From a virus: a stretch of DNA of 23,690 nt. The DNA lies in IMG/VR virus record IMGVR_UViG_3300040815_001820, positions 1 to 23,690 of that record; one strand, 5' to 3'. The stretch's first letter is position 1. Each line of letters opens with the position of its first letter. The notes beneath the pieces are model-generated. The model was not told the origin of the DNA, did not search any database, and saw only the letters and a list, made by a program, of their open reading frames with translations. Made by a program: the position numbers and the translations under genes. This document shows, one piece after another, positions 230 to 17,816 of the stretch.

Positions 230-1048
230 ATGAACTATTATAAAACACTTGGTGTATCTAAAAATGCATCGCAAGATGATATAAAAAAAGCTTATAGAAA
301 ACTTGCGATGCAGACTCATCCCGATCGTAATAACGGTGATGATACAAAGTTCAAAAAAATTAATGAAGCGTACGACACGTTAAAAGATCCTAATAAACGT
401 AGTATGTATGATACTCCGCAACCAAATCTTAATAACAATAACTTTAATCAACAACAAGACTTTCAAGATATATTCAGTCAAATGTTTAATAGAGGAAGGG
501 CGCCCCGACAACCTCGAAATGACGATATAACTGCATTTGCTAATTTAAATTTATCCGAAGTTTTTACAGGTAAAAATGTTATAATTGCTTATAAATTATC
601 AAGTGGTGAACAAGCAACTGTTGACATTGCTATACCAGCTGGTGCTACAGACGGTGATACAGTAAAATATGAAGGATTAGGCGATAATAGAGATAGAAGA
701 TTTCCAAGAGGAGATCTTTATGTAAAAATTAAAATACAAAAAAGCAGATACTGGACTCGTGACGGTAATGATTTACATACATCTCGAAGTGTTAGTGCAT
801 TTGATTTAATATTAGGTGGTGAATTAGATATAAGAACGCCAGAAAGTAAAAGTGTAAGAATAACAGTACCAGAAGGAACAGCGTCAGGAGTAGTAATGAG
901 TATTAAAGGATATGGTATTCCGGATGTAAGAACAACTAAAAGAGGCAATATATACATAAAATTAAATTGCGTTATACCTAAAATAAAAGATCAAACAATT
1001 TTAAATAAAATTAAGGATATAAAAAATGAAATTGATTCTATCACCTAA
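230..1048 (+). CDS. dnaJ: DnaJ/CbpA-type J-domain co-chaperone
   Basis: This 272-residue protein starts with a complete J domain (about residues 1-62) carrying the HPD tripeptide at 30-32, which in this family triggers ATP hydrolysis by DnaK/Hsp70. A Gln/Asn/Phe-rich linker follows (about 65-95), then a C-terminal substrate-binding region (about 100-265) with DnaJ-like elements such as [14 protein letters not shown] and the run DLILGGEL. The CxxCxG zinc-finger repeats of DnaJ are absent, so it is a class B or CbpA-like protein, shorter than DnaJ (about 375 residues). It probably recruits host DnaK to phage proteins during head or tail assembly or replication. Its end overlaps the deformylase gene by 23 bases, so the two are probably translationally coupled. 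The family is certain; the phage role is inferred. Confidence 0.93.
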
Positions 1049-1529
1049 CGAGTGGTTACAAAGAAAAGTAAATAAGTTTGATTTTGATAACTTAGATGCT
1101 GAAAACATATCAAAAGAGATGTTTGATGTAATGCAGTCAAATAATGGCATAGGTCTAAGTGCTAATCAAGTAGGAATTGATGCGCAAATATTTGTAATGA
1201 AGACATATCTCACAGATGATAGAAAACCTATAACAGTAATAAATCCTGAAATAGAAGCTGTAGCAGTAAATATAATTTCAGAAAAAGAAGGCTGTTTAAG
1301 TCATCCAAATTTATTTTTAAATATTAAAAGATCGAGAGGAATTCGAATAAAATATCTTGACATTTCTGGAAAAGAATGTAATAATGAATTATACGATATC
1401 GATGCACGTTGTTTTTTACATGAATATGATCACTTACAGGGGATTGAATTTACAGACAGAATTAGTAAATTAAAACTTAATATGGCAAAGAAAAAACTTC
1501 GAAAAACTACAATAAAGGAATTATTATAA
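1026..1529 (+). CDS. def: Peptide deformylase
   Basis: This 167-residue metalloenzyme removes the N-formyl group from nascent proteins. All three signature motifs are present: GIGLSANQ at 41-48, EGCLS at 88-92 (Cys90 a metal ligand) and HEYDH at 132-136 (His132 and His136 metal ligands, Glu133 catalytic), in the usual order and spacing. Phage deformylases are known from marine T4-like viruses, where they are thought to keep up with the burst of new protein or to sustain turnover of host photosystem proteins. The C-terminus after the HExxH motif is a short Lys/Leu-rich helix. The start lies inside the J-domain gene and the stop is one base before the ClpA start, giving a tight co-translated trio. 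Confidence 0.95.
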
Positions 1530-1530
1530 T

Positions 1531-3783
1531 ATGGTGGAACCGTCAAAAGATTTACAACTGGTTTTTGAAAAAGCAGTTCAAGATGCACGTAAATTAAAAC
1601 ATGAATATGTAACTCTAGAACACTTGTTATTTGCAATGCTTTGTGAAGAAAACTTTGTTAATTTATTGAAAAGTGTTAGAGTAGATGTTGATTACTTAAA
1701 AAGTAATCTAGAACATCACTTGAAGAACGGCTGCGAAGAACTAAAAATTGATGCAAAAAAGTTCAAGCCAAAGAAAACATCGACTGTAGAACGTGTTCTT
1801 AACCGTGCCTTTACTCAAACATTGTTTAACGGCAGAGCCGAAATACATCTTGCAGATGTACTGTTAAGTTTGCTTAACGAAAAGAAAAGTCCTTCTGTTT
1901 ATTTTGCAGAGAAAGCAGGAATTAATAAAGAAAACTTTGCAGAGTATGTGAAAAATGAATTACACGAAATTCATTTAGAAGAAGAAGAAATCTCTCAAGA
2001 TGCAAAACGTGCTCTAGCAAAATTTACAACTGATCTTAATAGTGAAGTTATAAAAGGTAAGGTTGATCCTATTATTGGACGTTCAGAAGAGCTAGAAAAA
2101 TTAGCACTTGCATTAGGGCGCCGTGCTAAAAACAATGTACTAATGGTGGGTGATCCGGGTGTTGGTAAAACTGCTATTGCAGAAGGACTTGCTTTTAACA
2201 TTGTTAACGAAAATGTTCCTAGTTTTCTTAAAGAATATAAAGTATATAATTTAGACATTGGTGCTATGTTAGCAGGTTCAAAATATAGAGGCGACTTCGA
2301 AGAACGTTTTAAGTTAGTACTTACTGCCTTAACAAAACAAGGCAAAACCATTATGTTTGTAGACGAAGCACATATGATGAACGGCGCTGGTGCCGGTGGT
2401 GGCAAAGATTCGAATGATCTTGCTAATATGCTAAAGCCTGCACTTACTAAAGGTGACTTAAAAGTTGTTGCTTCGACTACTTGGGAAGAATATCGTAAAT
2501 ACTTTGAAAAAGATCGTGCGCTGATGCGTCGATTCCAACGTGTTGTAATTGGTGAACCTTCTAAAGAAAACACAATTGAAATCTTAAGAGGTATTAAGAA
2601 ATATTACGAAGAATACCACGGTACAGAAATTACAGAATCTGCTATAGATGCAGCAGTTAAATTGAGTATAAAATATCAAACAGATAAAAAATTGCCTGAT
2701 AAAGCAATTGACTTAATTGACGTTGCATGTTCTAGATTTAAAGTAAATGATCAGTTTGAAAATAAAATTATAGACGAAAAAGAAATTCAGTTTGAACTTG
2801 CTAAAATGCTTAACTTACCAGAAGAGCAAGTTGCCGAACGTGAAACAGAAAATCTAGCAAATCTAGAAAAAAATATGAAACAATCTGTTTATGGTCAAGA
2901 CGAAGCTATAGAAAGTATTGTAGATAAAATTCTAGTTGCACAAGCAGGACTAAAACCAGATGATAAACCGGTAGGTAGTTTTGTATTTATGGGTCCAACT
3001 GGCACTGGTAAAACAGAAACAGCAAAATCTTTATCAAAAGCACTAGGTGTAAAACTTGTACGATTTGATATGAGTGAGTATCAAGAAAAACATAGTGTTG
3101 CAAAACTAATTGGATCACCTCCCGGTTACGTAGGTCATGAAGATACAAGTGGTCAACTTATTGAAAAGTTACAAGAAAATCCTAACTGTGTACTACTGCT
3201 CGACGAGATTGAAAAAGCGCACCCTGACGTATCGCAAATCTTATTACAAATTATGGATAACGGTATTATAACTGGTAGTAATGGTAAAGAAGCAGATGCA
3301 CGTAACTGTATTTTAATATTAACAACAAACTTAGGTGCTAAACAAGCTGAAAAGAATACTATTGGATTTGGTGAAACAATGGAAAACGATTACGAAGACA
3401 AGGAACTAAAGAAGTTTTTTGCTCCAGAATTCCGTAACAGACTCGACGGTACTATAACATTTGCAAGCTTAACAAAAGAAGTAATGATGAAGATTGTTGG
3501 CAAGTTTCTTGTTGAATTAAAGGAAATGGTGCAGGACAAACAAATTATAATCAATGTTACTGATGAAACACTTGACTGGTTAGTAGAAAAAGGCTTTGAT
3601 AAAAAGATGGGCGCTCGTCCTTTACAGCGTGTAATTGATAAAGATATTAAACGTCCATTATCACGTGAGATGCTATTTGGTAATTTAAAAGATGGTGGTA
3701 CAGTAACTATTAATATAGAATCAGATGAGATAAAACTTACTACTACTACTACAAAAGATATTGTAGAAAATGAAAATATTTGA
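1531..3783 (+). CDS. clpA: ClpA-type AAA+ unfoldase
   Basis: This 750-residue Hsp100 protein is almost the length of bacterial ClpA. An N-terminal Clp-N repeat domain (about 1-145) is followed by AAA-1 with Walker A GDPGVGKT at 207-214 and Walker B VDEAH with Asp278/Glu279. AAA-2 has Walker A GPTGTGKT at 488-495 and Walker B LLLDEIEKAH with Asp558/Glu559, then the C-terminal small domain (GARPLQRVI). There is no long coiled-coil middle domain, so it is ClpA-like rather than ClpB-like. An IGF tripeptide at 611-613 sits where ClpA and ClpX carry the loop that docks on ClpP, so this copy probably feeds a peptidase. No clpP is visible here. AAGGA at 1515-1519, inside def, is the likely ribosome site, 11 bases before ATG. 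It overlaps the next gene by 14 bases. Confidence 0.95.
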   Translation: MVEPSKDLQLVFEKAVQDARKLKHEYVTLEHLLFAMLCEENFVNLLKSVRVDVDYLKSNLEHHLKNGCEELKIDAKKFKPKKTSTVERVLNRAFTQTLFNGRAEIHLADVLLSLLNEKKSPSVYFAEKAGINKENFAEYVKNELHEIHLEEEEISQDAKRALAKFTTDLNSEVIKGKVDPIIGRSEELEKLALALGRRAKNNVLMVGDPGVGKTAIAEGLAFNIVNENVPSFLKEYKVYNLDIGAMLAGSKYRGDFEERFKLVLTALTKQGKTIMFVDEAHMMNGAGAGGGKDSNDLANMLKPALTKGDLKVVASTTWEEYRKYFEKDRALMRRFQRVVIGEPSKENTIEILRGIKKYYEEYHGTEITESAIDAAVKLSIKYQTDKKLPDKAIDLIDVACSRFKVNDQFENKIIDEKEIQFELAKMLNLPEEQVAERETENLANLEKNMKQSVYGQDEAIESIVDKILVAQAGLKPDDKPVGSFVFMGPTGTGKTETAKSLSKALGVKLVRFDMSEYQEKHSVAKLIGSPPGYVGHEDTSGQLIEKLQENPNCVLLLDEIEKAHPDVSQILLQIMDNGIITGSNGKEADARNCILILTTNLGAKQAEKNTIGFGETMENDYEDKELKKFFAPEFRNRLDGTITFASLTKEVMMKIVGKFLVELKEMVQDKQIIINVTDETLDWLVEKGFDKKMGARPLQRVIDKDIKRPLSREMLFGNLKDGGTVTINIESDEIKLTTTTTKDIVENENI

Positions 3784-4827: not shown

Positions 4828-5421
4828 ATGGAACATTTTATTAGAGTAGTAATGGAAAAACAAGATAATTTAAACGAAAGTTTAAATGAAGATGTATTTC
4901 CAGGAAGCATAATATACGAATCAGATCAAGGTGCAAGTATATTTGAAATGCCATTAGCAGCAGAACTAAGTGAACAAGAAGCAGATGACTTTGCTAACAA
5001 ACTAGCAGAATATGTTTTTGATCAAGGTTATGAAGACTTTGATATTGAAATTAGTGCAGACGGTGAAGTAGCTGAAGATGAAGAAACATATGAAGACGAT
5101 GACGAGTTTTATGAACAATACGGTGTTATGTGGTACAACGATGATGACATCATGGACGAAGCAGAATACCAAGGACGTACAGTTAAACTAGGCAAGCCTA
5201 TGCAAGGCGATGTTAAGAAGTTTAAGGTATATGTCAAAGATCCTAAGACAGGTAATGTTAAAAAAGTAAACTTTGGACACGGCGGTAGCAGTGTTAAAGG
5301 TAAGTCAATGAAGATTCGTAAAAACAATCCAGCGGCAAGACGTTCATTTAGAGCAAGACACAACTGTGACAATCCTGGACCGAGAACAAAAGCAAGATAT
5401 TGGAGTTGCAGAAAATGGTAA
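4828..5421 (+). CDS. Putative internal head protein, acidic front and basic tail
   Basis: The 197 residues divide in two. The N-terminal 110 or so are strongly acidic (runs such as EDEETYEDDDEFYEQYG). The C-terminal 85 are basic and begin after DEAEYQGRTVKLGKPM, ending in a Cys/Trp motif (RARHNCDNPGPRTKARYW, then SCRKW). That tail is a module I recognise as recurring at the ends of proteins in marine T4-like phages and some large viruses, without known function. Near the start are two tandem LNE tripeptides (15-17 and 19-21), matching the Leu/Ile-x-Glu rule of the T4 prohead protease gp21. AAGG at 4816-4819 is a fair ribosome site; a second ATG at 4852 would put LNE nearer the N-terminus. An internal or scaffold-type head protein is my inference. 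Confidence 0.75.
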   Translation: MEHFIRVVMEKQDNLNESLNEDVFPGSIIYESDQGASIFEMPLAAELSEQEADDFANKLAEYVFDQGYEDFDIEISADGEVAEDEETYEDDDEFYEQYGVMWYNDDDIMDEAEYQGRTVKLGKPMQGDVKKFKVYVKDPKTGNVKKVNFGHGGSSVKGKSMKIRKNNPAARRSFRARHNCDNPGPRTKARYWSCRKW

Positions 5422-5747
5422 TGATTAGAGAATTTTATAATAAACCAATAGATGATGCTAGTCTACCATACGATATAGTTGATGATATGGCTGTATTTGT
5501 ACGTAACGATCCTATGTTTTATCGTAAGAACTTTTTTCCTGCTATTCAAAAAATGAAGGCAAAAGGTTCTAATTTTGATCCGGTAAAAGAATTAGGTCCT
5601 ATGATAGATAAAGCATCACATAACTACTGTAAAAAATTTAATATTAATAAACGCCCAGAAACTCTTTTGAATGCAGAAGAAAAAAAGGTTCTTATTAATA
5701 AATTATATTCAGAAGAGATGACACAGATACGCAACGGAGTGTACTGA
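5415..5747 (+). CDS. Conserved T4-like phage protein, function unknown
   Basis: This 110-residue protein begins MVMIREF and contains a central patch DDMAVFVRNDPMFYRKNFFP followed by charged helices. I associate the pattern with a conserved hypothetical family of marine T4-like phages that often sits among virion genes; no function is known to me. There is no membrane segment and only one Cys. GGAG at 5402-5405 lies 9 bases before ATG 5415, which I prefer to ATG 5421 or a TTG at 5400. The start overlaps the end of the previous gene by 7 bases and the stop shares a base with the next start. An IRE tripeptide at 4-6 would fit a prohead-protease site, but this short motif alone is weak evidence. 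Confidence 0.78.
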   Translation: MVMIREFYNKPIDDASLPYDIVDDMAVFVRNDPMFYRKNFFPAIQKMKAKGSNFDPVKELGPMIDKASHNYCKKFNINKRPETLLNAEEKKVLINKLYSEEMTQIRNGVY

Positions 5748-7465
5748 TGTTATTAAGAGAATTGTTTGAAGCAAAAGCAAGACGTATAGTAGCAGTAATG
5801 CCAGGAGGATTTCATCCTTTCCATCCTGGACATAAAAGTTTATACGACTGGGCTGTAAAAACATTTGGTCAGTCTAACGTATATGTAGCAGCAACAAACG
5901 ACACAGCAGCAAGACCTTTTCCATTTGATGTAAAAAAGAAACTTGCAGGTATGGCAGGAGTTCCCGAAAGTAACTTCATACAAGTTAAATCACCTTTTAA
6001 CGCAATGAGCTACAAAGATATTGTAGATTCAGATACAGCACTAGTATTTGTACGCAGTCAAAAAGATAAAAACGAACAGCCGTTACCAGACCAAACTAAA
6101 AAGAATGGTGAGCCAGGTTACTTGCGTACTTACACAGGTAAAGATCTAAACACAGCAGACGAGATGGGCTATATGGCCTACGGTCCTACTATTAACTTTG
6201 ACTTTAGTGGCATGCAAATCAAGAGTGCGAGTGAACTAAGAACTACTTGGCCTGAAATGTCAGATGAAGATAAACTAAAGGCTGCCAAACTAATGTACGG
6301 CAATGGTGCGCCTGTTGCTGTGAAGCTATTAGATCAAGCACTGGGCGACAAAGAGGCGCCAGTAGGAGAAGATGCAAGCAGTGATGAAGAAGATGAATTC
6401 CACCGTAAGTTAGATAAACTTGTACATAAAACATTCGGTCATAGCTCGGACGAAAAGAAAAAGAAAAAAGAAAAATCAGTAGGCGAAGTTGATATAGTTA
6501 ACAAAAAATCTATGGCAGGTGACACAAAAACACACAGGTATACTGCTACTGGTGCAAGAATTCCAACTAGTGATACTTCAAAGTCTAGTGATATTACTAA
6601 AAAAGCAAAACAAGTAGACATGCCCAACGACACTATCGATGATTTTGATTTTTCAGGAGTAGACGGTGCAAAATTAAAAAAAGTAGTAGCAAGATTAGTA
6701 TCTGAACTTCCTGGTTCTCCAAAGAATATAAAAGTGTTGCAAGCTCGATTTGGATTAGCACCTTTTCAGAAAGCATATACATTACAACAAGTCGCAGACG
6801 CTATGGGAGTAACTCCGGAAGTTGTAAGACAGCGAGAAGCCAAAGCAATACGTATGCTAAAACATCCGAGTCGCTCAAGAGAACTACGCCCATTTTTAGA
6901 TGAATCTAATCCATTTACTGATGCACGTATGAACGCAATTAAAGCAAACAAAGATACATTTACAGTTGGTGGCAAAACATATAAGGTTACTGGGGATACA
7001 AGCGACGAAGAAAAAGCTGTACAAGAAGCAGAACTAAACGAAGTAGCACCGGCAGTTGCAGCAGTTATATGGATTCTTAAATGGGCTGTTAGATACGGTG
7101 CATGGCCAGTACTAAAATGGTTACTAAAGAAACATGGTGGAAAAATTATCGGTGGTGCAGCAGCAGCATACTATATTGATCAAGGCTGGGACTGGGTTAA
7201 GGACAACATAGGTGCAGAATATGCACAAATGCTTATTGATAATAAATTTGAGATTGCCGCAGCAGTAGCACTTATATTAGGAGCAGTTGCTCTTAAAAAA
7301 TATATGGAAAAACAAGGCGATAAACTTGTTAAAGCAAACGAGTCAATGATAGAAAAGGCTCCGCCAGGTAGAGAAAAACAAGTTAAAGCACTAAAGAAGA
7401 AATTTGACGATCCAGGTGCGCCATATGCAATAGCATGGGCGCAGCATAACAAGAAGAAAAAGTAA
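5747..7465 (+). CDS. Putative ejected polyprotein: nucleotidyltransferase + sigma-70 region 4 + hydrophobic tail
   Basis: This 572-residue protein has four visible parts. Residues 1-11 (MLLRELFEAKA) resemble the T4 internal-protein capsid-targeting peptide and include LFE at 6-8. Residues about 12-210 form a nucleotidyltransferase-fold domain with HPGH at 26-29 and a KSASELR stretch in the place of the family's ISSTxxR. After a charged linker, residues about 305-386 match sigma-70 regions 4.1 and 4.2: RFGL at 334-337, YTLQQVADAMGVTPEVVRQR at 344-363, then EAKAIRMLKHPSRS. An LNE at 430-432 precedes hydrophobic segments near 433-450, 467-477 and 503-516. The end (KKKFDDPGAPYAIAWAQHNK) is a basic module I recall from other marine phage proteins. 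GGAG at 5736-5739 sets the start. The domains are clear; packaging, cleavage and ejection are inferred. Confidence 0.85.
   Translation: MLLRELFEAKARRIVAVMPGGFHPFHPGHKSLYDWAVKTFGQSNVYVAATNDTAARPFPFDVKKKLAGMAGVPESNFIQVKSPFNAMSYKDIVDSDTALVFVRSQKDKNEQPLPDQTKKNGEPGYLRTYTGKDLNTADEMGYMAYGPTINFDFSGMQIKSASELRTTWPEMSDEDKLKAAKLMYGNGAPVAVKLLDQALGDKEAPVGEDASSDEEDEFHRKLDKLVHKTFGHSSDEKKKKKEKSVGEVDIVNKKSMAGDTKTHRYTATGARIPTSDTSKSSDITKKAKQVDMPNDTIDDFDFSGVDGAKLKKVVARLVSELPGSPKNIKVLQARFGLAPFQKAYTLQQVADAMGVTPEVVRQREAKAIRMLKHPSRSRELRPFLDESNPFTDARMNAIKANKDTFTVGGKTYKVTGDTSDEEKAVQEAELNEVAPAVAAVIWILKWAVRYGAWPVLKWLLKKHGGKIIGGAAAAYYIDQGWDWVKDNIGAEYAQMLIDNKFEIAAAVALILGAVALKKYMEKQGDKLVKANESMIEKAPPGREKQVKALKKKFDDPGAPYAIAWAQHNKKKK
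5762..5770 (+). other. Predicted prohead-protease site LFE, residues 6-8 of the 5747 protein
   Basis: The codons encode Leu-Phe-Glu followed by Ala, fitting the T4 gp21 rule Leu/Ile-x-Glu with a small residue after the cut. Its position, 8 residues from the start, matches the T4 internal protein III leader (MKTYQEFIAE, cut after Glu10). The motif carries little information by itself; the position is what makes it credible. Confidence 0.5.
7034..7042 (+). other. Predicted internal cleavage site LNE, residues 430-432 of the 5747 protein
   Basis: Leu-Asn-Glu lies exactly where the charged linker ends and the hydrophobic part begins (next residues VAPAVAAV). Cutting here would free a C-terminal piece of about 140 residues with three hydrophobic segments. 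The same kind of boundary, LDE followed by IIPAVAAV, occurs in the protein at 9865-10353, which argues against coincidence. Confidence 0.5.
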
Positions 7466-7692
7466 TGGATGAACTCGAGCGTATAAAGAAACTTGCAGGC
7501 GTAAACGAATTCAAAGGTTACACAGAGTATACTCTTGAAAATATTAGTGATGCTGCAAATTCAAATGCACGTAAGATGCGCAAAGATAATATCAAACCAG
7601 GTGACAAAGAATGGTTTGAACTGTGGTTTGGACTGCCTAAGATGACAGGTGAAAATATGCCGGCAGGCTTTAGAGGACGTAAAAAGAAATGA
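7465..7692 (+). CDS. Small basic phage protein, likely virion-associated
   Basis: This 75-residue protein begins MDELERIKKLAGVNEF, a leader style I have seen in short proteins of marine T4-like phages. It ends with GDKEWFELWFGLPKMTGE and a basic tail (GFRGRKKK). The EWFELWF aromatic cluster also looks like a recurring module. No enzyme motif, Cys pair or membrane helix is present. VNE at 13-15 is close to, but not, the Leu/Ile-x-Glu cleavage rule. Start and stop both overlap neighbours (TAATG with the gene before; ATGA with the Cys-rich gene after), so it is translated within the block. It is probably packaged with the DNA along with its neighbours; its function is unknown. Confidence 0.75.
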   Translation: MDELERIKKLAGVNEFKGYTEYTLENISDAANSNARKMRKDNIKPGDKEWFELWFGLPKMTGENMPAGFRGRKKK

Positions 7693-7805: not shown

Positions 7806-8023
7806 TGAAAAAATGGTTCTACAAAATATGGCGTAGTTGGAACCCATGGTATGTACTAGAAGTAGATCACCGTGGTAAAATTCGTCGTATTGTTGTGGCA
7901 GATTTTAAAAAGAAAACACCAAATCATATTAAAGGTAGAACTAACCACGGTGAATGGTTTGAATTAAAAAGTGCTACGCCTATGGATTACTATATTGAGG
8001 AATATAAGGAAGATTTGAAATGA
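7805..8023 (+). CDS. Conserved small phage protein
   Basis: This 72-residue protein is rich in Trp and Lys at its start (MKKWFYKIWRSWNPW) and has alternating strands (YVLEVDHRGKIRRIVVADF), a central HIKGRTNHGEWFELK patch and an acidic end (YYIEEYKEDLK). I recognise the general pattern as a hypothetical protein of marine T4-like phages but know no function. There is no membrane helix or Cys. It overlaps both neighbours (TAATG before, ATGA after). It might be a small beta-barrel nucleic-acid-binding protein given its basic strands, but this is a guess from composition only. Confidence 0.75.
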   Translation: MKKWFYKIWRSWNPWYVLEVDHRGKIRRIVVADFKKKTPNHIKGRTNHGEWFELKSATPMDYYIEEYKEDLK

Positions 8024-8799
8024 AAATGTCAGACTTATCCGACTTAAATGAAGATGGAAGAATAGTAAAAGGTGTTAACACAACTCCAGATGTAAGCACT
8101 GATGAAATAAAAACACAAGCTGCAAAATTTGGTTTTAATGTAGACAAGGACGGACGTCCGCCTACACTAAGTAAAAAAGTTAAAGGTAAATCAACTAACG
8201 TATTGTTTAATCTAGGGCTTGCTGAAGGATACAAACTACAGTTAGAACGTGACAAGAAGATGCTAGTTCTAAATATTAAAAACACAACAACAGGACAACG
8301 TACAGAAGTACGTGGTAAACCAGGATACGAAACAGGCGGGTACGATCCTAATGACGATTTACACCAACTGTTAGATACTATCGGTAAGAGCGTTGATATT
8401 TCACAGCTAATGAATGGCGAGCCTGTAGGTATTAATCCTAAACATCCAGACGGTGCTAAAGCAAAGACTGCTACTGATAAAGCATATAACGAACGCTTTA
8501 CAGCAATGGAATGGGCTATTATAGAAGGCGGGCATAGTTTGAATGAATGGGTGTGTGGTAAATGTTTTGCTGAACCTTGTAAGTGTGATAAAACTCCAGG
8601 TGATTTATTTACAGCATTGGAAAACTTTGCTGACGGTAAAGTAAAAGGCAAAAGCAGACCGGGGCGTGTAAAGCGTTCAGGTGCTAGTTGTAATGGAAGT
8701 GTAACAGCACTACGCAAACGTGCTAAGAACGCTAGTGGCGAAAAGGCTAAAATGTATCATTGGTGTGCAAACATGAAATCAGGTAGGAAGAAGAAATAA
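8020..8799 (+). CDS. Putative internal head protein with zinc knot and basic C-terminal module
   Basis: This 259-residue protein starts MKMSDLSDLNEDGR, with LNE at 9-11 as a possible prohead-protease site. Residues about 12-165 form a mixed alpha/beta region I do not recognise. A second LNE at 174-176 comes directly before a Cys knot (Cys179, 182, 187 and 189, spaced CxxC-x4-CxC). The last 65 residues are strongly basic and form a module I recall from several marine phage proteins: GKVKGKSRPGRVKRSGASC, then an HWCANMKSGRKKK end. The layout leader, domain, LNE, zinc knot, basic tail suggests a polyprotein cut into a soluble part and a DNA-binding part. The start shares ATGA with the previous stop. 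Cleavage and packaging are inferred. Confidence 0.78.
   Translation: MKMSDLSDLNEDGRIVKGVNTTPDVSTDEIKTQAAKFGFNVDKDGRPPTLSKKVKGKSTNVLFNLGLAEGYKLQLERDKKMLVLNIKNTTTGQRTEVRGKPGYETGGYDPNDDLHQLLDTIGKSVDISQLMNGEPVGINPKHPDGAKAKTATDKAYNERFTAMEWAIIEGGHSLNEWVCGKCFAEPCKCDKTPGDLFTALENFADGKVKGKSRPGRVKRSGASCNGSVTALRKRAKNASGEKAKMYHWCANMKSGRKKK
8539..8547 (+). other. Predicted internal cleavage site LNE, residues 174-176 of the 8020 protein
   Basis: Leu-Asn-Glu stands three residues before the first Cys of the zinc knot. A cut here would release an 83-residue Cys- and Lys/Arg-rich C-terminal piece. Same motif and module-boundary position as at 7034-7042; not proven. Confidence 0.4.
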
Positions 8800-8948
8800 T
8801 GGACATAGAGCATTACATAGCTAAGTATAAAGAACACGAAGCACGTAACGCTACTACTAATGAACGTGAAGAATATTGGAAACAATATGCTAAGTCACAA
8901 AAACAATTAGATCCAGAAACAAGTTTTGATATGGGAAAATACACATGA
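8799..8948 (+). CDS. Small charged protein, 49 residues
   Basis: A 50-codon ORF fits exactly between its neighbours: its ATG shares the A of the previous TAA and its TGA overlaps the next ATG (ATGA). The product is highly charged and helical (AKYKEHEARNATTNEREEYW), with no Cys or membrane segment. AGGAAG at 8784-8789 can serve as ribosome site. The exact overlaps on both sides, the same as its neighbours, are the main evidence that it is real. I recognise no family or function. Confidence 0.65.
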   Translation: MDIEHYIAKYKEHEARNATTNEREEYWKQYAKSQKQLDPETSFDMGKYT

Positions 8949-9163
8949 AGATGAATGAATTATTAGACGAAGTAGCAACCGCTGGCAGCACTAGTGCTGG
9001 ATCAATTGCTACTGTAGCAAGTGTACCAGGTGCTAAACGTAAAGTAAAAAAAGATAAAAATGGTATACCAAAAGCGCCACAAGCTACAAATGCCGACGGT
9101 ACTGCTAAAAATGCACTTGATATGAATACCAACGTAATGGGCGGCAAGACTATTAAGAGATAA
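8945..9163 (+). CDS. Small basic Ala/Gly-rich protein with N-terminal cleavage motif
   Basis: This 72-residue protein begins MKMNELLDEVATAG, with LDE at 7-9. A low-complexity stretch rich in Ala, Ser, Thr and Gly follows (STSAGSIATVASVPGAKRK), then a basic Lys-rich end (GGKTIKR). The STSAG-SIATVAS patch is a motif I recall from small proteins of marine T4-like phages near scaffold or internal head genes. A leader of this size ending in Leu-x-Glu, with a basic body, is what T4 internal proteins look like. No enzyme motif is present. It is followed by a late-promoter-like box and the only sizeable gap of this block (30 bases). Confidence 0.72.
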   Translation: MKMNELLDEVATAGSTSAGSIATVASVPGAKRKVKKDKNGIPKAPQATNADGTAKNALDMNTNVMGGKTIKR

Positions 9164-9193: not shown

Positions 9194-9847
9194 ATGAGAG
9201 AAAAAGAAATTAGCGAAGGATTAGGCGACTTAGCACACGCTGCTGAAAGAGACCATGAAGTACAAATGGCTCGTGCTGATCTTTACAAACTAGCAAAGTA
9301 TGCAATCAAACTACACGACATGCTAAAAGGCGTAAGCGAAGCAGAAGGTCTTGAAGGTTGGGTACAATCAAAAATTACTAAATCCGCAGATATGATTGGT
9401 AGTGTTTATCATCATATGGATTATGAAAATAGTCCAATGGGCGAAGTAACAGAAGCAAAAGATACACATTGTTCAGACAAGTGTTGCGGTGCTGATACTA
9501 AAGCAGAAGATTGTACATGTCCTCCCAGCTGTGAACATTGTAATTGTAATTCAGTTAGTGAAGGTAAAAGCCCTCATAAAAAAGGTACTAAAAAGTACAA
9601 GAAGCATATGGCTGCAATGCATGCCGAAAGCCTACAAGATCGTCTAGCAAAAAAACTTTCTGAAGCAACACAAACTTGCAACGAATGTGGCAAAGCTATG
9701 TTAACTGCTTCTGAAAAGAAAGAACTTGCAGAACTTGAAGAAGGCAAGCGTCACGGCAACAGCAAAATCTACAAGAAGTGCTGGAAAGGCTGTCGTAAAG
9801 TAGCAGGCAAGAAGCGTGGCGAGCCAGGCTCGTGCAAGTGTGATTAA
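9194..9847 (+). CDS. Putative modular internal head protein with Cys-rich modules
   Basis: This 217-residue protein begins MREKEISEG with ISE at 6-8. Residues about 9-80 form a helical domain (AHAAERDHEVQMARADLYKL, then KGVSEAEGLEGWVQSKI) that I recognise as recurring in virion-region proteins of marine T4-like phages. A Cys-rich stretch follows (CSDKCC, CTCPPSCEHCNC), then a basic patch (HKKGTKKYKKHMAAMHAE) and LSE at 155-157 before a CNECGK pair. LEE at 181-183 precedes the final basic Cys module (GNSKIYKKCWKGCRKVAGKK, ending SCKCD). Each Leu/Ile-x-Glu site falls between modules, as in a precursor cut into several peptides. GGAG 7 bases upstream fixes the start. Packaging and processing are inferred; metal binding by the Cys clusters is likely. 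Confidence 0.8.
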   Translation: MREKEISEGLGDLAHAAERDHEVQMARADLYKLAKYAIKLHDMLKGVSEAEGLEGWVQSKITKSADMIGSVYHHMDYENSPMGEVTEAKDTHCSDKCCGADTKAEDCTCPPSCEHCNCNSVSEGKSPHKKGTKKYKKHMAAMHAESLQDRLAKKLSEATQTCNECGKAMLTASEKKELAELEEGKRHGNSKIYKKCWKGCRKVAGKKRGEPGSCKCD

Positions 9848-9864: not shown

Positions 9865-10353
9865 ATGAAAAAGTTAGACATAGAACAAGCCGAACCGATT
9901 CGAAAAAAGTTTGCTCCAGACTGGGAGATTCGCAAGGGCAAGTATCTATATAAGAAAGTAGCGTTTGATGATTACAATCAAGTGCTACGCTTTTTAATGG
10001 TTATCGAAAAGCCACAAATCAAACTAGATCACTTTGCTGACGTAGGAGTCTTTTATAACGAAGTTACTATGATGGTATACACACACGATGTGGGCGGACT
10101 TACACAGCTAGACTTCGAACTTGCACTATATATTGATGAAGCATTAAAACTAATGGGTGCAAAAAAGTTAGATGAAATTATTCCGGCAGTAGCAGCAGTT
10201 GCAGGTGGCGTTGCAAGAGCCGCAGGCGGAGCAGTAGCAAAAGCAGCAGGCCGAGCAGTAGGCGGAGCAGTAGCAAATACTATATCTGATAAACTTAATG
10301 CAAATAAAAAAAATAAAAAGAAACCGATTAAATCAAAGAATAGAACAAAGTAA
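9865..10353 (+). CDS. Pterin-carbinolamine-dehydratase-like protein with Ala/Gly-rich tail
   Basis: Residues about 1-95 of this 162-residue protein resemble pterin-4a-carbinolamine dehydratase (PCD/DCoH): a DW..R...L.K...F.DY start and the family core VFYNEVTMMVYTHDVGGLTQ with D83 and ALYIDEAL after it. The usual HHP active-site triad is here HFA (56-58); the second conserved His (His74 in THD) remains. Activity is therefore doubtful and a binding role more likely. LDE at 102-104 then precedes a 58-residue tail with repeated Gly-Gly/Ala-Gly and Arg/Lys spacing (PAVAAVAGGVARAAGGAVAK), an amphipathic glycine-zipper-like segment, and a Lys-rich end. That tail is built like the segment after LNE in the 5747 protein. 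No good ribosome site is visible. A dual-part ejected protein is inferred. Confidence 0.75.
   Translation: MKKLDIEQAEPIRKKFAPDWEIRKGKYLYKKVAFDDYNQVLRFLMVIEKPQIKLDHFADVGVFYNEVTMMVYTHDVGGLTQLDFELALYIDEALKLMGAKKLDEIIPAVAAVAGGVARAAGGAVAKAAGRAVGGAVANTISDKLNANKKNKKKPIKSKNRTK
10168..10176 (+). other. Predicted cleavage site LDE, residues 102-104 of the 9865 protein
   Basis: Leu-Asp-Glu separates the PCD-like domain from the Ala/Gly-rich tail beginning IIPAVAAV. The match to the boundary LNE-VAPAVAAV at 7034 in another protein is the main support. A cut would release a 58-residue cationic hydrophobic peptide. Confidence 0.48.
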
Positions 10354-12809: not shown

Positions 12810-15479
12810 TTGAGTTATGTAGACGCTTTTTTCGATCGAGGTCAAGATATCATTCGAGTTGTCGAAAGAAAAGATGGTAAAAGAGAATATCAAGAGTATA
12901 ATGCAAAATATACTTTTTATTACAAAGACGAACGGGGCAAGTATAAAAGTGTGTACGGTGATCCGCTAAGTCGTATTGTATGTAAGAATACAAAAGACTT
13001 CCGCAAAGAAGTTGCTATTAACAGAGATAAGACGCTTTTTGAAAGTGATATTAATCCAATCTTTCAGTGTTTGTCAGCAAATTATCTCAACCAAGATGCT
13101 CCTAAACTAAACATTGCGTTTTTCGATATTGAGACTGACTTTGATCCAGAGCGCGGCTTTGCTGATCCTGCAGATCCGTTTATGCCTATTACTTCTATAA
13201 GTATATACTTACAATGGCTAGAAACTATGATCTGCCTAGCAGTTCCGCCAAAGACACTTACAATGGAAGAAGCTGAAAAAGAACTAGAAGGCATTGAAAA
13301 CGTAATGCTGTTTGCTAAAGAAGGTGACATGATTGACACTTTCTTAACACTGATTGAAGATGCTGATATCTTAAGTGGATGGAACAGTGAAGGTTATGAT
13401 ATTCCGTACACTGTTAACAGAACAAGTCGTGTACTAAGCAAAGATGACACAAGACGTTTTTGTTTGTGGGGGCAGTTGCCTAAAAAACGTGAATATGAAA
13501 AGTATGGGAAGCAAGCGGTTACATTTGACCTAGTAGGTCGTGTACATTTAGATAGCTTAGAACTATATCGTAAGTACACATATGAAGAACGTCATACATA
13601 TCGATTAGATGCTATTGGTGAGATCGAAGTAGGCGAAAACAAGGTGCCATATGAAGGTACACTAGATCAGTTGTATAACAATGACTTCCGTAAGTTTATT
13701 GAATACAACATCCAAGATACTGCACTACTTGACAAGTTGGACAAGAAACTACGTTTTATTGACTTGAGTAATACTGTTGCACACGAAAACACTGTGCTAC
13801 TACAGACTACAATGGGCGCTGTTGCTGTTACAGAACAAGGTATTGTTAACGAAGCACATAATAGAGGTTTACAAGTTCCTAATAGACGTCCACGTGACGA
13901 TACAGAAAATACACAAGCTGCTGGTGCTTATGTTGCGTTTCCAAAGAAAGGTGTACATAAATGGGTTGCTAGTATGGACTTAAACAGTCTATATCCAAGT
14001 GTAATTCGTGCATTAAATATGGCTCCAGAGACTATTGTAGGACAAATACGTCCTGAGATATCTGAGGCCCGAGTACACGAAGACATGAATCTTAAGAAGA
14101 AAAGCTTTGCAGGTAGTTGGGAAGGACGTTTTAGTACTGAAGAATACGAAGCTGTAATGGAGAAACGCAAAGATATTTCGTTAACTGTTGACTGGGAAGA
14201 CGGACGTACAGATGTACTAAGTGGTGCCGAGTTGTATCAAGTTATTTTTGATAGTCACATGCCGTGGATGATTAGTGCTAATGGCACTATCTTTACAATG
14301 GAAAATGAAGGTGTTATTCCAGGACTACTAAAGCGTTGGTATGCTGAACGTAAAGACATGCAGAAGATGCTTAAGAAAGCAAAAGACGCAGGTAACAAGG
14401 CAGAGATCGAATACTGGGATAAACGACAGTTGGTTAAGAAAATTAACTTGAATAGTTTGTATGGTGCGATTCTCAACCCTGGTTGTAGATTCTTCGATAA
14501 ACGCATCGGACAATCTACTACACTGACTGGACGTACTATTGTTAAACATATGAGTGCCGAAGTTAATAAAACTATTACGGGCGAGTATAATCATGTAGGC
14601 GAAGCAATGATATATGGCGATACTGACTCTTGTTACTTTAGTGCCTGGCCAATACTTAAAGATGATGTTAACAATGGTAAACTTGAATGGTCTAAAGAAA
14701 AATGTATTATACTTATGGATCAAGTATGCGAACAGGCAAACACAACATTTCCAAAGTTTATGGCAGAAGCATTTCACTGTCCAAAAACCCGTAGTGATGT
14801 TATTGCAGCAGGTAGAGAAATTGTAGCACAAAGTGGATTGTATATTACTAAGAAACGTTATGCAGCACTAGTAATTGACAATGAAGGTTTTAGAACTGAC
14901 GATGACGGTGTAGGCAAAGTAAAAGCAATGGGTCTAGACTTGCGTAGATCAGATACACCTGTGTTTATGCAGGACTTCTTGAAAGAACTACTGCTAATGG
15001 TACTAACAGATGTTCCGCAACAACAAGTACTAGATCGTATTACAGAATTCCGCAAAGAATTTAGTGCAAGACCAGGTTGGGAGAAAGGTTCGCCTAAACG
15101 TGCAAACAAAGTTGGTCATTATCAGAGACTAGAAGAAAAACAAGGCAAGGCAAATATGCCCGGACATGTTCGTGCAAGTCTTAACTGGAATACACTAAAG
15201 CGTATGAACGGTGACAAGTACTCGCAAGAGATTGTAGATGGTATGAAAGTTATTGTTTGTAAACTAAAACAGAATCCGTTAGGATATACAAGTGTTGCTT
15301 ATCCTACAGATGAATTGCGCATTCCTGAATGGTTTAAAGAACTGCCGTTTGATGATGCGGCTATGGCAGAAACTATTATTGACAACAAACTAGACAACTT
15401 GATTGGTGTGCTTAACTATCCATTAGAGGATACTAAATCACACACTACATTTGGTAGTTTATTTGAATTTGGAGATTAA
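12810..15479 (+). CDS. 43: T4-type family B DNA polymerase
   Basis: This 889-residue replicative polymerase with 3'-5' proofreading is near the T4 gp43 length (898). The exonuclease domain carries FFDIETDFD (catalytic Asp106 and Glu108), GWNSEGYDIPY, and YNIQDTALLD. The polymerase domain has motif A DLNSLYPSVIR (from 390), motif B KKINLNSLYG (543-552) and motif C YGDTDS (602-607, with metal-binding Asp604 and Asp606). The C-terminus FGSLFEFGD resembles the gp43 tail that binds the sliding clamp, and a gp45-like clamp is encoded at 18574. Translation starts at TTG with a strong AGGAG site. The polymerase is probably co-transcribed with dsbA and the carbamoyltransferase; the next gene follows after one base. 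Confidence 0.97.
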   Translation: MSYVDAFFDRGQDIIRVVERKDGKREYQEYNAKYTFYYKDERGKYKSVYGDPLSRIVCKNTKDFRKEVAINRDKTLFESDINPIFQCLSANYLNQDAPKLNIAFFDIETDFDPERGFADPADPFMPITSISIYLQWLETMICLAVPPKTLTMEEAEKELEGIENVMLFAKEGDMIDTFLTLIEDADILSGWNSEGYDIPYTVNRTSRVLSKDDTRRFCLWGQLPKKREYEKYGKQAVTFDLVGRVHLDSLELYRKYTYEERHTYRLDAIGEIEVGENKVPYEGTLDQLYNNDFRKFIEYNIQDTALLDKLDKKLRFIDLSNTVAHENTVLLQTTMGAVAVTEQGIVNEAHNRGLQVPNRRPRDDTENTQAAGAYVAFPKKGVHKWVASMDLNSLYPSVIRALNMAPETIVGQIRPEISEARVHEDMNLKKKSFAGSWEGRFSTEEYEAVMEKRKDISLTVDWEDGRTDVLSGAELYQVIFDSHMPWMISANGTIFTMENEGVIPGLLKRWYAERKDMQKMLKKAKDAGNKAEIEYWDKRQLVKKINLNSLYGAILNPGCRFFDKRIGQSTTLTGRTIVKHMSAEVNKTITGEYNHVGEAMIYGDTDSCYFSAWPILKDDVNNGKLEWSKEKCIILMDQVCEQANTTFPKFMAEAFHCPKTRSDVIAAGREIVAQSGLYITKKRYAALVIDNEGFRTDDDGVGKVKAMGLDLRRSDTPVFMQDFLKELLLMVLTDVPQQQVLDRITEFRKEFSARPGWEKGSPKRANKVGHYQRLEEKQGKANMPGHVRASLNWNTLKRMNGDKYSQEIVDGMKVIVCKLKQNPLGYTSVAYPTDELRIPEWFKELPFDDAAMAETIIDNKLDNLIGVLNYPLEDTKSHTTFGSLFEFGD

Positions 15480-15480
15480 A

Positions 15481-15900
15481 ATGAAGATCGGTTTTACATG
15501 TTCAACCTTTGATTTATTACATGCTGGACATATACAAATGTTACGTGAAGCAAAAGAGCAATGTGATTATCTTATATGCGGATTACAAACAGATCCTAGT
15601 GTAGACAGGCCAGAAAAAAATCCACCAGTGCAGACTATTGTAGAAAGATACACACAGTTAAAAGGTGTAAGCTATGTAGATGAGATTATTCCATACGGCA
15701 CTGAACAAGACCTAAATGATATCTTGACAATGTACAATATTGATGTTAGAATATTAGGTGAAGAGTATCGTGAAAAGGATTTTACGGGCAAGGATATTTG
15801 CAAGAAGCGGGGTATCCAGCTACACTTTAATAAAAGAGATCACCGCTTCTCATCCAGTGACTTGCGTAAAAGAGTCACAGAAAGAGAAACAAATGGATAG
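15481..15900 (+). CDS. Cytidylyltransferase (glycerol-3-phosphate/TagD-like)
   Basis: This 139-residue single-domain nucleotidyltransferase carries HAGH at 14-17, the nucleotide-binding HxGH motif, and a FSSSDLRKR element matching the family's ISSTxxR. It also has the family region TDPSVDRPEKNPPVQT followed by ERYTQLKGVSYVDEIIPYGT. Size and pattern match glycerol-3-phosphate cytidylyltransferase (TagD) and related sugar-phosphate cytidylyltransferases, which make CDP-activated alcohols or sugars. The substrate is not certain. GGAG 6 bases upstream, at the end of gene 43, supports ATG 15481 rather than an earlier in-frame start at 15451. With the PMM-like, UGDH-like and SDR genes downstream it opens a sugar-activation cassette. 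Confidence 0.9.
   Translation: MKIGFTCSTFDLLHAGHIQMLREAKEQCDYLICGLQTDPSVDRPEKNPPVQTIVERYTQLKGVSYVDEIIPYGTEQDLNDILTMYNIDVRILGEEYREKDFTGKDICKKRGIQLHFNKRDHRFSSSDLRKRVTERETNG
15724..15752 (+). promoter_or_regulatory. Possible intragenic sigma-70 promoter
   Basis: TTGACA (15724-15729), a 17-base spacer and TAGAAT (15747-15752) sit inside the cytidylyltransferase gene, about 140 bases before the small genes from 15893. The -10 has one mismatch to TATAAT. The spacing equals that of the three stronger promoters here, but the site is fully within coding sequence and may be chance. Confidence 0.3.
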
Positions 15901-16033
15901 GCAAACTGACCCTACTGCACGTGAGTTAAGAAAAATTTTTGTAGAAAATCAACTAGAATTTTTTGTTAAAGAAGAAAATGAAGGTGTTATCAAAGTACAC
16001 TTTATAATAAACACTGACAAAAAGGATATATAA
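15893..16033 (+). CDS. Small hypothetical protein, 46 residues
   Basis: A 46-residue ORF starts inside the end of the cytidylyltransferase gene (8-base overlap) and ends directly before the next ATG. The product has a charged helix (DPTARELRKIFVENQLEFFV) and a beta-like end (EGVIKVHFIINTD). No Cys or membrane segment. An AGAG at 15881-15884 is a weak ribosome site. The evidence that it is a gene is its tight fit in a compact run of small ORFs; no family is recognised. Confidence 0.6.
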   Translation: MDRQTDPTARELRKIFVENQLEFFVKEENEGVIKVHFIINTDKKDI

Positions 16034-16213
16034 ATGACTGACGGACCTTTTAAGAACGCATTTGATGCAGACATAGACGGCGTGATTCGACGTGAGATTG
16101 TAACCTATCGTATGCGTAACGGTATAATGATTAAAGAAAGCGCATGTCGCGATTATTATACAAGTGGCGATTATCACGATAGTGAAAGCACACAGCCACT
16201 AGTGGAGAGATAA
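16034..16213 (+). CDS. Small conserved-looking phage protein, 59 residues
   Basis: A 60-codon ORF begins immediately after the previous stop (TAAATG) and ends one base before the next ATG. The central pattern VTYRMRNGIMIKESACRDYY followed by SGDYHDSE resembles short hypothetical proteins I recall from marine T4-like phages. It is a mixed-charge soluble protein with a single Cys. AAAGGATATATAA just upstream supplies an AAGGA ribosome site, 9 bases before the ATG. Function is unknown. Confidence 0.65.
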   Translation: MTDGPFKNAFDADIDGVIRREIVTYRMRNGIMIKESACRDYYTSGDYHDSESTQPLVER

Positions 16214-16214
16214 T

Positions 16215-16373
16215 ATGTGGACACTTTGGATCGTAAGTAGTGTAATTTATAGCACAGAACCTAAATACACTCGTTATGAAGAGTTTGAAACTGCTATGAG
16301 CTGTCATATTGAACAAGCTGTACTAGAAACAGAATTTATACAAAACGAAAAGGCATTTTGCATAAATGAATAA
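16215..16373 (+). CDS. Small protein with hydrophobic N-terminus, 52 residues
   Basis: A 53-codon ORF with GGAGAG 5 to 10 bases upstream of the ATG (within 16204-16209). The start MWTLWIVSSVIYS is hydrophobic but too short for a confident membrane helix and may be a buried strand; the rest is acidic and helical with two Cys (30 and 49). It overlaps the PMM-like gene by 8 bases. The pattern resembles tiny hypothetical proteins of marine phages; no function is known. Confidence 0.62.
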   Translation: MWTLWIVSSVIYSTEPKYTRYEEFETAMSCHIEQAVLETEFIQNEKAFCINE

Positions 16374-17064
16374 ATTTATTTTTGATGTGGACGGTACACT
16401 TACTCCTAGTAGAGGATTAATGGATGCAGAATTTAAGTCTTACTTTTTTAAAGTTATAGAACAGTTTGATGTGTTTCTTGTAACAGGAAGCGATTATGCT
16501 AAAACAGTAGAACAATGTGGTCAAGATATTTGTGAGTCAGTAAATGCAGTATATAATTGTAGCGGAAGTGAAAAGTGGATATCAGGAGAATGTGTAGTAA
16601 CTACTGAATGGATGATGGAACGGAAGCCGTTTCAATGGTTAGAAAAAAGACTAGAATATAGTAAATTTCCGTTGCGTACTGGAAATCATTACGAACACAG
16701 AACTGGCATGATGAACTTTAGTATTGTGGGGAGAAATGCAAATAAAAAACAAAGACAACAATATGTAGAATGGGATACTAAAGTAGGTGAACGAAATCTA
16801 ATTGCAGATAAGTTTAACGAATTTTGGTTAGACCTTGAAGCAAGGCCAGGTGGTGAAACAGGAATTGATATAGGTCCAAAAGGTTCTAATAAATCTCAAA
16901 TATTAAAAGATTTTAATCAAACTGATAATTTAATCTTTTTTGGAGATCGTATGGACGAACAAGGTAACGATTTTCCACTATCTGATGCTATTGTACATGG
17001 AGTAAATCATCATGTAAGTGATTGGCAAGATACAATGAAGATACTACAGGAGAATTATTTATGA
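16366..17064 (+). CDS. Phosphomannomutase-like HAD-superfamily protein
   Basis: This 232-residue protein resembles the eukaryotic-type phosphomannomutase (HAD subfamily IIB), about 15 residues shorter. HAD motif I is DVDGT at 7-11 with catalytic Asp7 and Asp9; VTGSD gives motif II. The cap carries NFSIVGRNA (117-125), close to the PMM signature NVSPIGRN, and the end has FFGDRMDEQGND (191-202), matching PMM's FFGDKT...GGND metal site. PMM turns mannose-6-phosphate into mannose-1-phosphate for GDP-mannose; a general sugar phosphatase is the main alternative. The start overlaps the tiny ORF before it by 8 bases and the stop overlaps the UGDH-like start (ATGA). Family reading is firm, exact substrate inferred. 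Confidence 0.85.
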   Translation: MNKFIFDVDGTLTPSRGLMDAEFKSYFFKVIEQFDVFLVTGSDYAKTVEQCGQDICESVNAVYNCSGSEKWISGECVVTTEWMMERKPFQWLEKRLEYSKFPLRTGNHYEHRTGMMNFSIVGRNANKKQRQQYVEWDTKVGERNLIADKFNEFWLDLEARPGGETGIDIGPKGSNKSQILKDFNQTDNLIFFGDRMDEQGNDFPLSDAIVHGVNHHVSDWQDTMKILQENYL

Positions 17065-17816
17065 AACTAGGAATTGCAGGATATGGATTTGTAGGCAAAG
17101 CACATCATGAATTTTTTAAAAATTATAACGATGTAGTAATTACTGATCCAGCATATGATAATTTATTAGATAAATTTCCTACAGATGTATCAGCTATAAT
17201 AATATGTGTTGCAACTCCGCAAGACAAAGATGGAAGTTGTTATGTACAAAATATATTAGATGTAATTGAGAAATCACCAAATGTACCTTTCTTAATTAAA
17301 TCAACATTAAGCTTAGAAGGTTGGAATAAAATTAAAGAACATTATCCAAATGCAAGTCTAACATTTTCTCCAGAATTTTTAAGAGCAGAAACTGCTGTGA
17401 ATGACTTTTTAAAGACAAAAGTATTTTTACTAGGAGGTGACGACATAGGCTTTTGGAAGACAATTTTTGCAAACACGAATAAAGATTTACAATTTGAAGA
17501 ATACAGTGCCGAAGAACTTATACTAACAAAATATGTTAGAAATAGTTTTTTAGCATTAAAAGTAGCATTTTTTAATCAAATATACGATTTGTGTCAGGCA
17601 TCTAATATTGATTATAATAACGTTACTAAAGGTGTAACACAAGATAATAGAATAGGTAGTAGTCATACTACAATCACTGAGCAACGAGGTTTTGGAGGAC
17701 ACTGTTTTCCAAAAGACACAAGTGCTATTTGTTATACAGCAAATAATAAATATGGAGTAAATTTGAGTATATTAGAAAAAGCAATAGAATATAATACTCA
17801 AATAAGAAAAAAATAA
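17061..17816 (+). CDS. UDP-glucose 6-dehydrogenase-like protein lacking the UDP-binding domain
   Basis: This 251-residue protein matches the first two thirds of the UDP-glucose/GDP-mannose dehydrogenase family. The Rossmann motif GYGFVG is at 7-12, followed by VATPQDKDGS, SPEFLRAE, the central helix region LTKYVRNSFLALKVAFFNQ and the catalytic-Cys motif GFGGHCFPKD with Cys215. Family members run about 390-450 residues; this one stops about 35 residues after the Cys and lacks the C-terminal UDP-sugar-binding domain. The next gene is an unrelated SDR, so the missing part is not split off beside it. AGGAG at 17048-17052, 8 bases before ATG 17061, supports the start over an upstream in-frame codon at 17022. 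It may oxidise another substrate or need a partner. Confidence 0.88.
   Translation: MKLGIAGYGFVGKAHHEFFKNYNDVVITDPAYDNLLDKFPTDVSAIIICVATPQDKDGSCYVQNILDVIEKSPNVPFLIKSTLSLEGWNKIKEHYPNASLTFSPEFLRAETAVNDFLKTKVFLLGGDDIGFWKTIFANTNKDLQFEEYSAEELILTKYVRNSFLALKVAFFNQIYDLCQASNIDYNNVTKGVTQDNRIGSSHTTITEQRGFGGHCFPKDTSAICYTANNKYGVNLSILEKAIEYNTQIRKK

Follow-up and report, generated by a model that had tools for sequence, protein, structure and literature searches.

A mosaic nucleotidyltransferase and sigma region 4 protein of a T4-type phage, probably a capsid-internal preprotein built from interchangeable modules

Packaged internal proteins that are trimmed by a protease are known from T4 and from phiKZ-like phages. 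The T4 internal proteins are made with a propeptide of 10-19 residues, of which the first 10 are enough for capsid targeting, and the protease gp21 cuts after the triplet L/I-x-E (PMC9026906). Alt of T4, which is cut at both ends, is ejected and modifies the host RNA polymerase (PMC9026906). Moreover, the cytidylyltransferase/NMNAT-like proteins S-CREM2 gp154, S-SZBM1_140 and S-SCSM1 ORF91 of cyanophages were detected by mass spectrometry in CsCl-purified virions (PMC10665884, PMC9146016, PMC9602691), where, according to the authors of the virion proteomes, carry-over in the CsCl purification is possible (PMC10665884, PMC9602691).

Here we analysed a viral DNA stretch of 23,690 nucleotides (IMGVR_UViG_3300040815_001820, hereafter the window), in which a single unbroken reading frame runs on the plus strand from an ATG at 5747 to a stop at 7465 and encodes 572 amino acids. 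It had been noticed as an unusual fusion of a nucleotidyltransferase (NTase), a Lys-rich linker, sigma region 4 and a hydrophobic part, and all of these parts are found in the one frame. Their order is HPGH NTase, acidic/Lys-rich part (with the Lys-rich linker at about residues 238-243), sigma-70 region 4, short linker module, hydrophobic helical domain and basic tail. What the original prediction had overlooked is an N-terminal tag, MLLRELFE/A, and the [LIVMF]-x-E triplets that stand where modules meet (a slash marks the position of a putative cut). We consider it likely that this large T4-type phage makes the protein as a capsid-internal preprotein of the ejection type, which is composed of interchangeable modules, cut in the prohead and delivered with the DNA. 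Its features are as follows.

5747-7465, plus strand: candidate mosaic preprotein, 572 amino acids plus stop; the architecture is repeated in contig L002, and NTase plus sigma4 in L003 and L004.
5747-5770, plus strand: putative capsid-targeting sequence (CTS) MLLRELFE/, residues 1-8; L-F-E/A is a prohead-protease-type site under the gp21 rule of L/I-x-E and a CTS of about 10 residues (PMC9026906); M1, L6 and E8 are invariant in 23 aligned relatives.
5771-6370, plus strand: nucleotidyltransferase module, residues 9-208, HIGH superfamily by profile and fold matches; dN/dS 0.10.
5822-5833, plus strand: HPGH catalytic motif, residues 26-29, invariant in 23 relatives.
6221-6241, plus strand: KSASELR, residues 159-165, the family form of ISSTxxR, 90% or more conserved; MSSATEIR in the G016 homologue.
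6371-6487, plus strand: acidic/Lys-rich module /DASSDEEDEFH...KKKKKEKSVGE/, residues 209-247; portable, with E at -1 in 10 of 10 distinct upstream contexts.
6488-6904, plus strand: sigma4 module, residues 248-386, in five different protein contexts.
6719-6904, plus strand: sigma-70 region 4 proper, residues 325-386, by Pfam and PDB matches.
6905-7042, plus strand: short module /SNPFTDARM..., residues 387-432; again in L038 after VEE/, with a different upstream NTase.
7043-7354, plus strand: hydrophobic all-helical module /VAPAVAAVIW..., residues 433-536; 13 distinct upstream contexts with [LIV]xE before each; AlphaFold2 (AF2) pLDDT 84.
7355-7462, plus strand: basic C-terminal module /KAPPGREKQVKALKKK...IAWAQHNKKKK, residues 537-572, pI 10.2; 6 distinct upstream contexts with E before each; weak phrog_1820 match.

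A frameshift or assembly artefact, named at the outset as something that would undo the fusion, was ruled out by L002-L004. The gene in L002 is identical, and two contigs of separate metagenomes, L003 and L004, have NTase and sigma4 in one frame that ends directly after sigma4 (74% identity over residues 1-386). The fusion is nevertheless not the rule. A scan of viral contigs gave 69 relatives, nearly all of which, besides L002-L004, keep the NTase alone (residues 1 to about 210 are common) and continue with differing tails, and the hydrophobic domain is found elsewhere in small proteins without an NTase. In a 300-kb phage that has a sigma4 protein of about 744 residues, the NTase homologue is a separate gene. 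In the survey of domain order that had been proposed, NTase plus sigma4 recurs and the tails vary. The concern that homologues would have the domains in separate genes with no virion link was justified for the separate genes and not borne out for the virion link. Because such separate-gene homologues do have a virion link, the picture shifts, and on sequence comparison the fusion is one of shuffled modules rather than a fixed chimera. The histories of the modules differ as well, since between the window and L003 dS is 0.64 for the NTase and 2.2 for sigma4. Two further contigs (L026:7914-10400 and L028:7896-10082) carry versions of this mosaic that exceed 700 amino acids and include the NTase, the hydrophobic, acidic, GYKLQLERD and NFADGK modules and others, which suggests that the number and order of modules vary freely.

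Using module starts defined by all-against-all BLAST boundaries, with no hand-picking, we found [LIVMF]xE at 191 of 418 starts compared with 53 ± 6.6 when positions in these proteins were drawn at random (z=21). Glutamate is found at the first shared residue in 34% of cases against a background of 7%, and none of the other 19 residues is positively enriched (none above z 0.6). An earlier, cruder junction count (194 vs 117) pointed in the same direction more weakly. The enrichment reaches z 20.9 in proteins with a CTS-like N-terminus and 6.3 in the remainder. For seven modules, with seeds chosen by eye, E lies directly upstream in 13/14, 10/10, 10/10, 6/6, 10/10, 27/27 and 5/5 distinct contexts, the single exception among the 14 being a spurious pattern match. 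The window protein itself has ten such triplets, eight of them belonging to the tag or lying on a border or next to one (E5, E8, E208, E247, E386, E427, E432, E536) and two within folded domains (E74, E320); their density is 0.48 per 100 residues in the NTase domain and 2.25 outside. The triplets at the module borders are of the kind that the T4 prohead protease gp21 cuts.

Such sites might also be relics of gene fusion, in which formerly separate tagged genes left their junction E behind and no internal cleavage takes place today, so that the chain could be packaged in one piece. The KWSxxYKKS module, which occurs behind an N-terminal tag (MRWSEVTE/KWS) as well as at internal positions, fits this explanation. 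However, the internal upstream stretches are unlike relic tags, and the neighbours of the hydrophobic residue and the E vary freely while the E is kept in nearly every context, which suggests selection on the site. We therefore regard a pure fusion relic as highly improbable.

The tag MLLRELFE/A, with a length close to 10 residues, an end of the form L/I-x-E and L6 and E8 invariant in 23 sequences, resembles a T4 capsid-targeting sequence. In a 236-kb relative, CTS-like N-termini are found in 6 of the 10 genes around the NTase as against 30 of 226 (p=0.001), and N-terminal [LI]xE is barely raised genome-wide (0.164 vs a background of 0.135), so that the enrichment is local. The homologue in the 300-kb phage (G016) has no N-terminal tag, and no clear one was seen on the NTases of PAC2, Cr30 and HTVC008M. 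Genes for gp21 (PF03420) and gp23 are present on the contigs of five relatives, including the 300-kb contig with the sigma4 module, and gp23 of the 236-kb relative has LSE/S ahead of its conserved part. No gp21 gene was found in L002-L005, nor on the NTase-bearing contigs of the 275-kb and 237-kb relatives, which may be incomplete; the window is itself a fragment of 23.7 kb. The genes close to the ORF in the window are these.

4828-5421, plus strand: neighbouring gene of the same cluster, in which the phrog_7595 module forms the C-terminal part, behind IMDE/.
7465-7692, plus strand: neighbour MDELERIKKLAGVNEF..., syntenic in the 236-kb relative.
8020-8799, plus strand: neighbour with the tag MKMSDLSDLNE/DG and the modules LAE/GYKLQLERD and ALE/NFADGK.
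8945-9163, plus strand: neighbour with the CTS-like tag MKMNELLDE/V.
9194-9847, plus strand: neighbour with the CTS-like tag MREKEISE/G.
9865-10353, plus strand: Pterin_4a-domain protein (pterin-4a-carbinolamine-dehydratase-like), Pfam E 3e-17; its homologues in L098, L100, L101 and L104 have the sigma4 module behind it.

The phrog_7595 module offers a natural experiment among cultured phages. Where gp21 is present, in four of them (C48C1, HTVC008M, Flavobacterium immuto and Melnitz-3), it follows a longer N-terminus that ends in ELTE/, PLEE/, ELDE/ or MME/, and in four phages without a gp21 match (Kolga, Aegir, CRP-902 and HTVC111P) it starts directly after the Met, in sets that are small and in part made up of close kin (Kolga and Aegir are identical here).

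The NTase domain spans residues 12 to 200 approximately. In isolation it scores 21.2 bits with Pfam CTP_transf_like, at a cut-off of 21.0, and 20.1 bits within the whole protein; the match to TIGR00125 (E 2e-5) lies under the family cut-off. A structure prediction and a comparison with NadM, TagD and NMN adenylyltransferases had been suggested, and the AlphaFold2 model (mean pLDDT 72) aligned in VIA-align with Z scores of 11.3 to PPAT/CoaD, 9.9 to NadD and 9.8 to NadM, CoaD ranking at least as high as NadD. With its Rossmann-like fold, HPGH at 26-29, KSASELR at 159-165 and the fold match to CoaD and NadD, the domain belongs to the HIGH superfamily, and according to the model its fold is that of a small-molecule adenylyl/cytidylyltransferase of the CoaD, NadD and NadM type. 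An NAD- or CoA-type adenylyltransferase is a plausible predicted activity.

In the original prediction KSASELR was taken as a hint that activity might be lost or altered, a reading that we reject. The motif is the conserved form of the family, kept at 90% or more in 23 members, a counterpart (MSSATEIR) stands at its position in the diverged G016 homologue, HPGH is invariant in the 23 members, and dN/dS, a rough value because many pairs are close to saturated at synonymous sites, is 0.10 for the NTase, 0.16 for sigma4 and 0.21 for the hydrophobic module, indicating purifying selection. The conservation of the motifs together with the low dN/dS argues for domains that are probably active. The suggested nucleotidylation of a host protein, as by AMPylators, found no support, given the small-molecule transferase fold and an NTase that mostly occurs without sigma4, so that sigma4 does not appear to be its targeting subunit. 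No Fic or pseudokinase-type fold appeared among the Pfam, NCBIfam and fold-search results, although absence from these lists is no proof. A pattern scan of 84,980 genomes, with a reach limited to close relatives, confirmed no cellular relative of the HPGH NTase, and the best cultured relative, from Microcystis phage Mel-JY01, is not close (26% identity over 29% of the protein). An arms race between phages and bacteria is centred on NAD and includes the NARP pathways (e.g. PMC12774641). As a guess, an adenylyltransferase of the NAD or CoA type that is injected by the phage would be in keeping with it.

The same fold matches to CoaD and NadD could mean that the NTase is simply an auxiliary NMNAT/CoaD-like metabolic enzyme, made after infection and never packaged, with C-terminal modules that are passengers of recombination. 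In cyanophages the homologues mostly bear the annotation cytidyltransferase and are counted among the auxiliary metabolic genes, and the G016 homologue has no tag. We consider this unlikely because the tag residues L6 and E8 are invariant, the border sites are of the protease type, a protein of virion-structural type holds a copy of sigma4 and homologues were detected in virions by mass spectrometry.

Two of the virion-detected NTases begin with CTS-like sequences, MKNFSSFLTE/A in S-CREM2 and MRFRQFIIE/A in S-SZBM1, and the NTases of Syn9 (gp184), P-SSM2 and Melnitz have CTS-like N-termini too. These virion-detected cyanophage NTases are of the FGRFNPP type and are related to the HPGH type only at the level of the superfamily. 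Entry with the DNA, as proposed originally, is plausible in view of the tag, the border sites, the virion NTase homologues and the presence of sigma4 in a protein of a virion-structural family.

The sigma-70 region 4 at residues 325-386 scores 31.9 bits with Pfam PF04545 (curated cut-off 24.1), and its best PDB match is region 4 of RpoD (E 4e-11). A sigma-70 factor has region 2 plus region 4, and only region 4 was matched here; as regions 2 and 3 are absent, the sigma4 piece cannot be a complete sigma factor. In sigma-70 numbering, it retains E585, R588 and Q589, and R584 is changed to P and R586 to V. Across the viral contigs the module occurs in five contexts, namely the architecture of the window, NTase plus sigma4 (L003/L004), the Pterin_4a proteins (L098, L100, L101, L104), a mosaic of about 550 residues (L099) and the protein of about 744 residues (L096/L097), whose front part in L096 matches a virion-structural-protein PHROG (E 7e-15). 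In the window it starts with VGE/VDIV, compared with the usual xxE/A[MI]PYTGKSP. Among cultured phages, the search matches resemble ordinary sigma factors only, most of them in unannotated records. The most economical role for sigma4 would be binding at the region-4 site of the host RNA polymerase.

A functional chimera would act differently: the uncut protein would dock on the host RNA polymerase through sigma4 and be anchored in the membrane, and the NTase would nucleotidylate the polymerase or a nearby protein. That all domains share one reading frame, and that NTase and sigma4 are again joined in L003 and L004, is in line with such a protein. It is made extremely unlikely by the relatives, as sigma4 is missing from most relatives of the NTase and the NTase from most proteins with sigma4, and further by the L-D-E immediately after sigma4, the small-molecule transferase fold and the differing dS of the two modules.

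The hydrophobic part, at about residues 433-536, contains two 19-residue stretches with a mean Kyte-Doolittle value of 1.5-1.6. Its AF2 model is all-helical, and a solved-structure match was found neither by sequence nor, to any useful degree, by Foldseek (all E 5 or more).

The modules may also be inert filler, that is, scaffold-like core-protein pieces and relic domains packaged without any activity in the host. In T4, the core proteins are cleaved to fragments that for the most part leave the head (PMC9026906), and the low-complexity modules of the present family are variable. Values of dN/dS of 0.1-0.2 across three domains and the invariant catalytic motif make inert filler very unlikely. 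The retention of E585, R588 and Q589 in sigma4 also speaks against it, though R584 and R586 are changed.

Other genes of the window were observed as well. At 12810-15479 lies a T4-type DNA polymerase (gp43), closest (about 46-50%) to those of the Rhizobiales jumbo phages Phosso and Atu_ph07. Since these closest gp43 relatives infect Sinorhizobium and Agrobacterium, one may reasonably guess that the host is an alphaproteobacterium. Consecutive genes at 230-3783 encode DnaJ, peptide deformylase and a ClpA-like ATPase, in synteny with the 236-kb relative (G004). A second, unrelated NTase at 15451-15900 is HldE/TagD-like (TIGR02199, E 3e-21, below the family cut-off) and is followed at 16366-18577 by PMM-like, UDP-glucose dehydrogenase-like and epimerase genes; together, the genes at 15451-18577 perhaps form a small sugar-nucleotide pathway. 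No Pfam, PHROG or NCBIfam family matched the 509-residue protein at 19669-21198 under the thresholds applied.

Returning to the capsid-internal preprotein, which we favour, we infer its packaging, cleavage, ejection and host targets as follows. The MLLRELFE tag would bring the preprotein into the prohead core in the manner of the CTS of T4 internal proteins. A gp21-type prohead protease would then cut after the [LIVMF]-x-E sites at E8, E208, E247, E386, E432 and E536, giving an NTase of about 22 kDa, an acidic/Lys peptide, a sigma4 piece of about 15 kDa, the SNPFT piece, the hydrophobic helical piece and the basic tail. As the virion proteomes with related NTases suggest, these pieces may remain in the head until they pass into the cell together with the DNA. 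The freed NTase, acting on small molecules like the adenylyltransferases NMNAT and CoaD, could plausibly support the pool of NAD or a related cofactor as infection begins. The sigma4 piece may compete for or remodel the sigma-region-4 site on the host RNA polymerase and so play a part similar to that of Alt in T4, and the hydrophobic piece may act at the membrane. Under this scheme the domains would be joined for the sake of packaging and not to act as one functional chimera.

A wider proposal, which we put forward tentatively, is that T4-type phages possess a capsid-loaded system of effector polyproteins, in which exchangeable modules, including a host-like sigma-70 region 4 and adenylyltransferases, are placed behind one tag and released in the head when the prohead protease cuts. 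Their injection would then affect host RNA polymerase and cofactor metabolism before the first phage transcription. In the literature searched, we found neither packaged sigma factors or a packaged sigma-70 region 4 nor a modular prohead-protease polyprotein with a site at each border. If true, the [LIVMF]xE borders would be a simple rule for reading from sequence which effectors uncultured T4-type phages inject, and the recurrent 'cytidyltransferases' in cyanophage virions would be easier to explain.

Compared with the T4 internal proteins and Alt, the window protein shares a short tag with L-x-E at its end, relatives that encode a gp21-type protease, a likely packaged enzyme for host takeover and RNA polymerase as a plausible second target. 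It differs by several unrelated modules per preprotein with internal border sites, by NTase and sigma4 in place of the ADP-ribosyltransferase, and by extensive shuffling between phages. With the virion cytidylyltransferase/NMNAT-like proteins of cyanophages (PHROG 395), found there by mass spectrometry, it has the HIGH superfamily and, in the two checked, CTS-like N-termini in common, whereas those proteins are of the FGRFNPP type, only distantly similar, and have no reported sigma4. The sigma4 module has the helix-turn-helix and the HPSRSxxLRxFLD end of RpoD region 4; unlike RpoD, the window protein is without regions 1-3, carries region 4 in a capsid-type module and has the changes R584 to P and R586 to V. 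Finally, the NTase shares the fold and both motifs of CoaD, NadD and NadM at only 10-20% identity, with His in place of the usual Asp (GGFHP vs GGTFDP).
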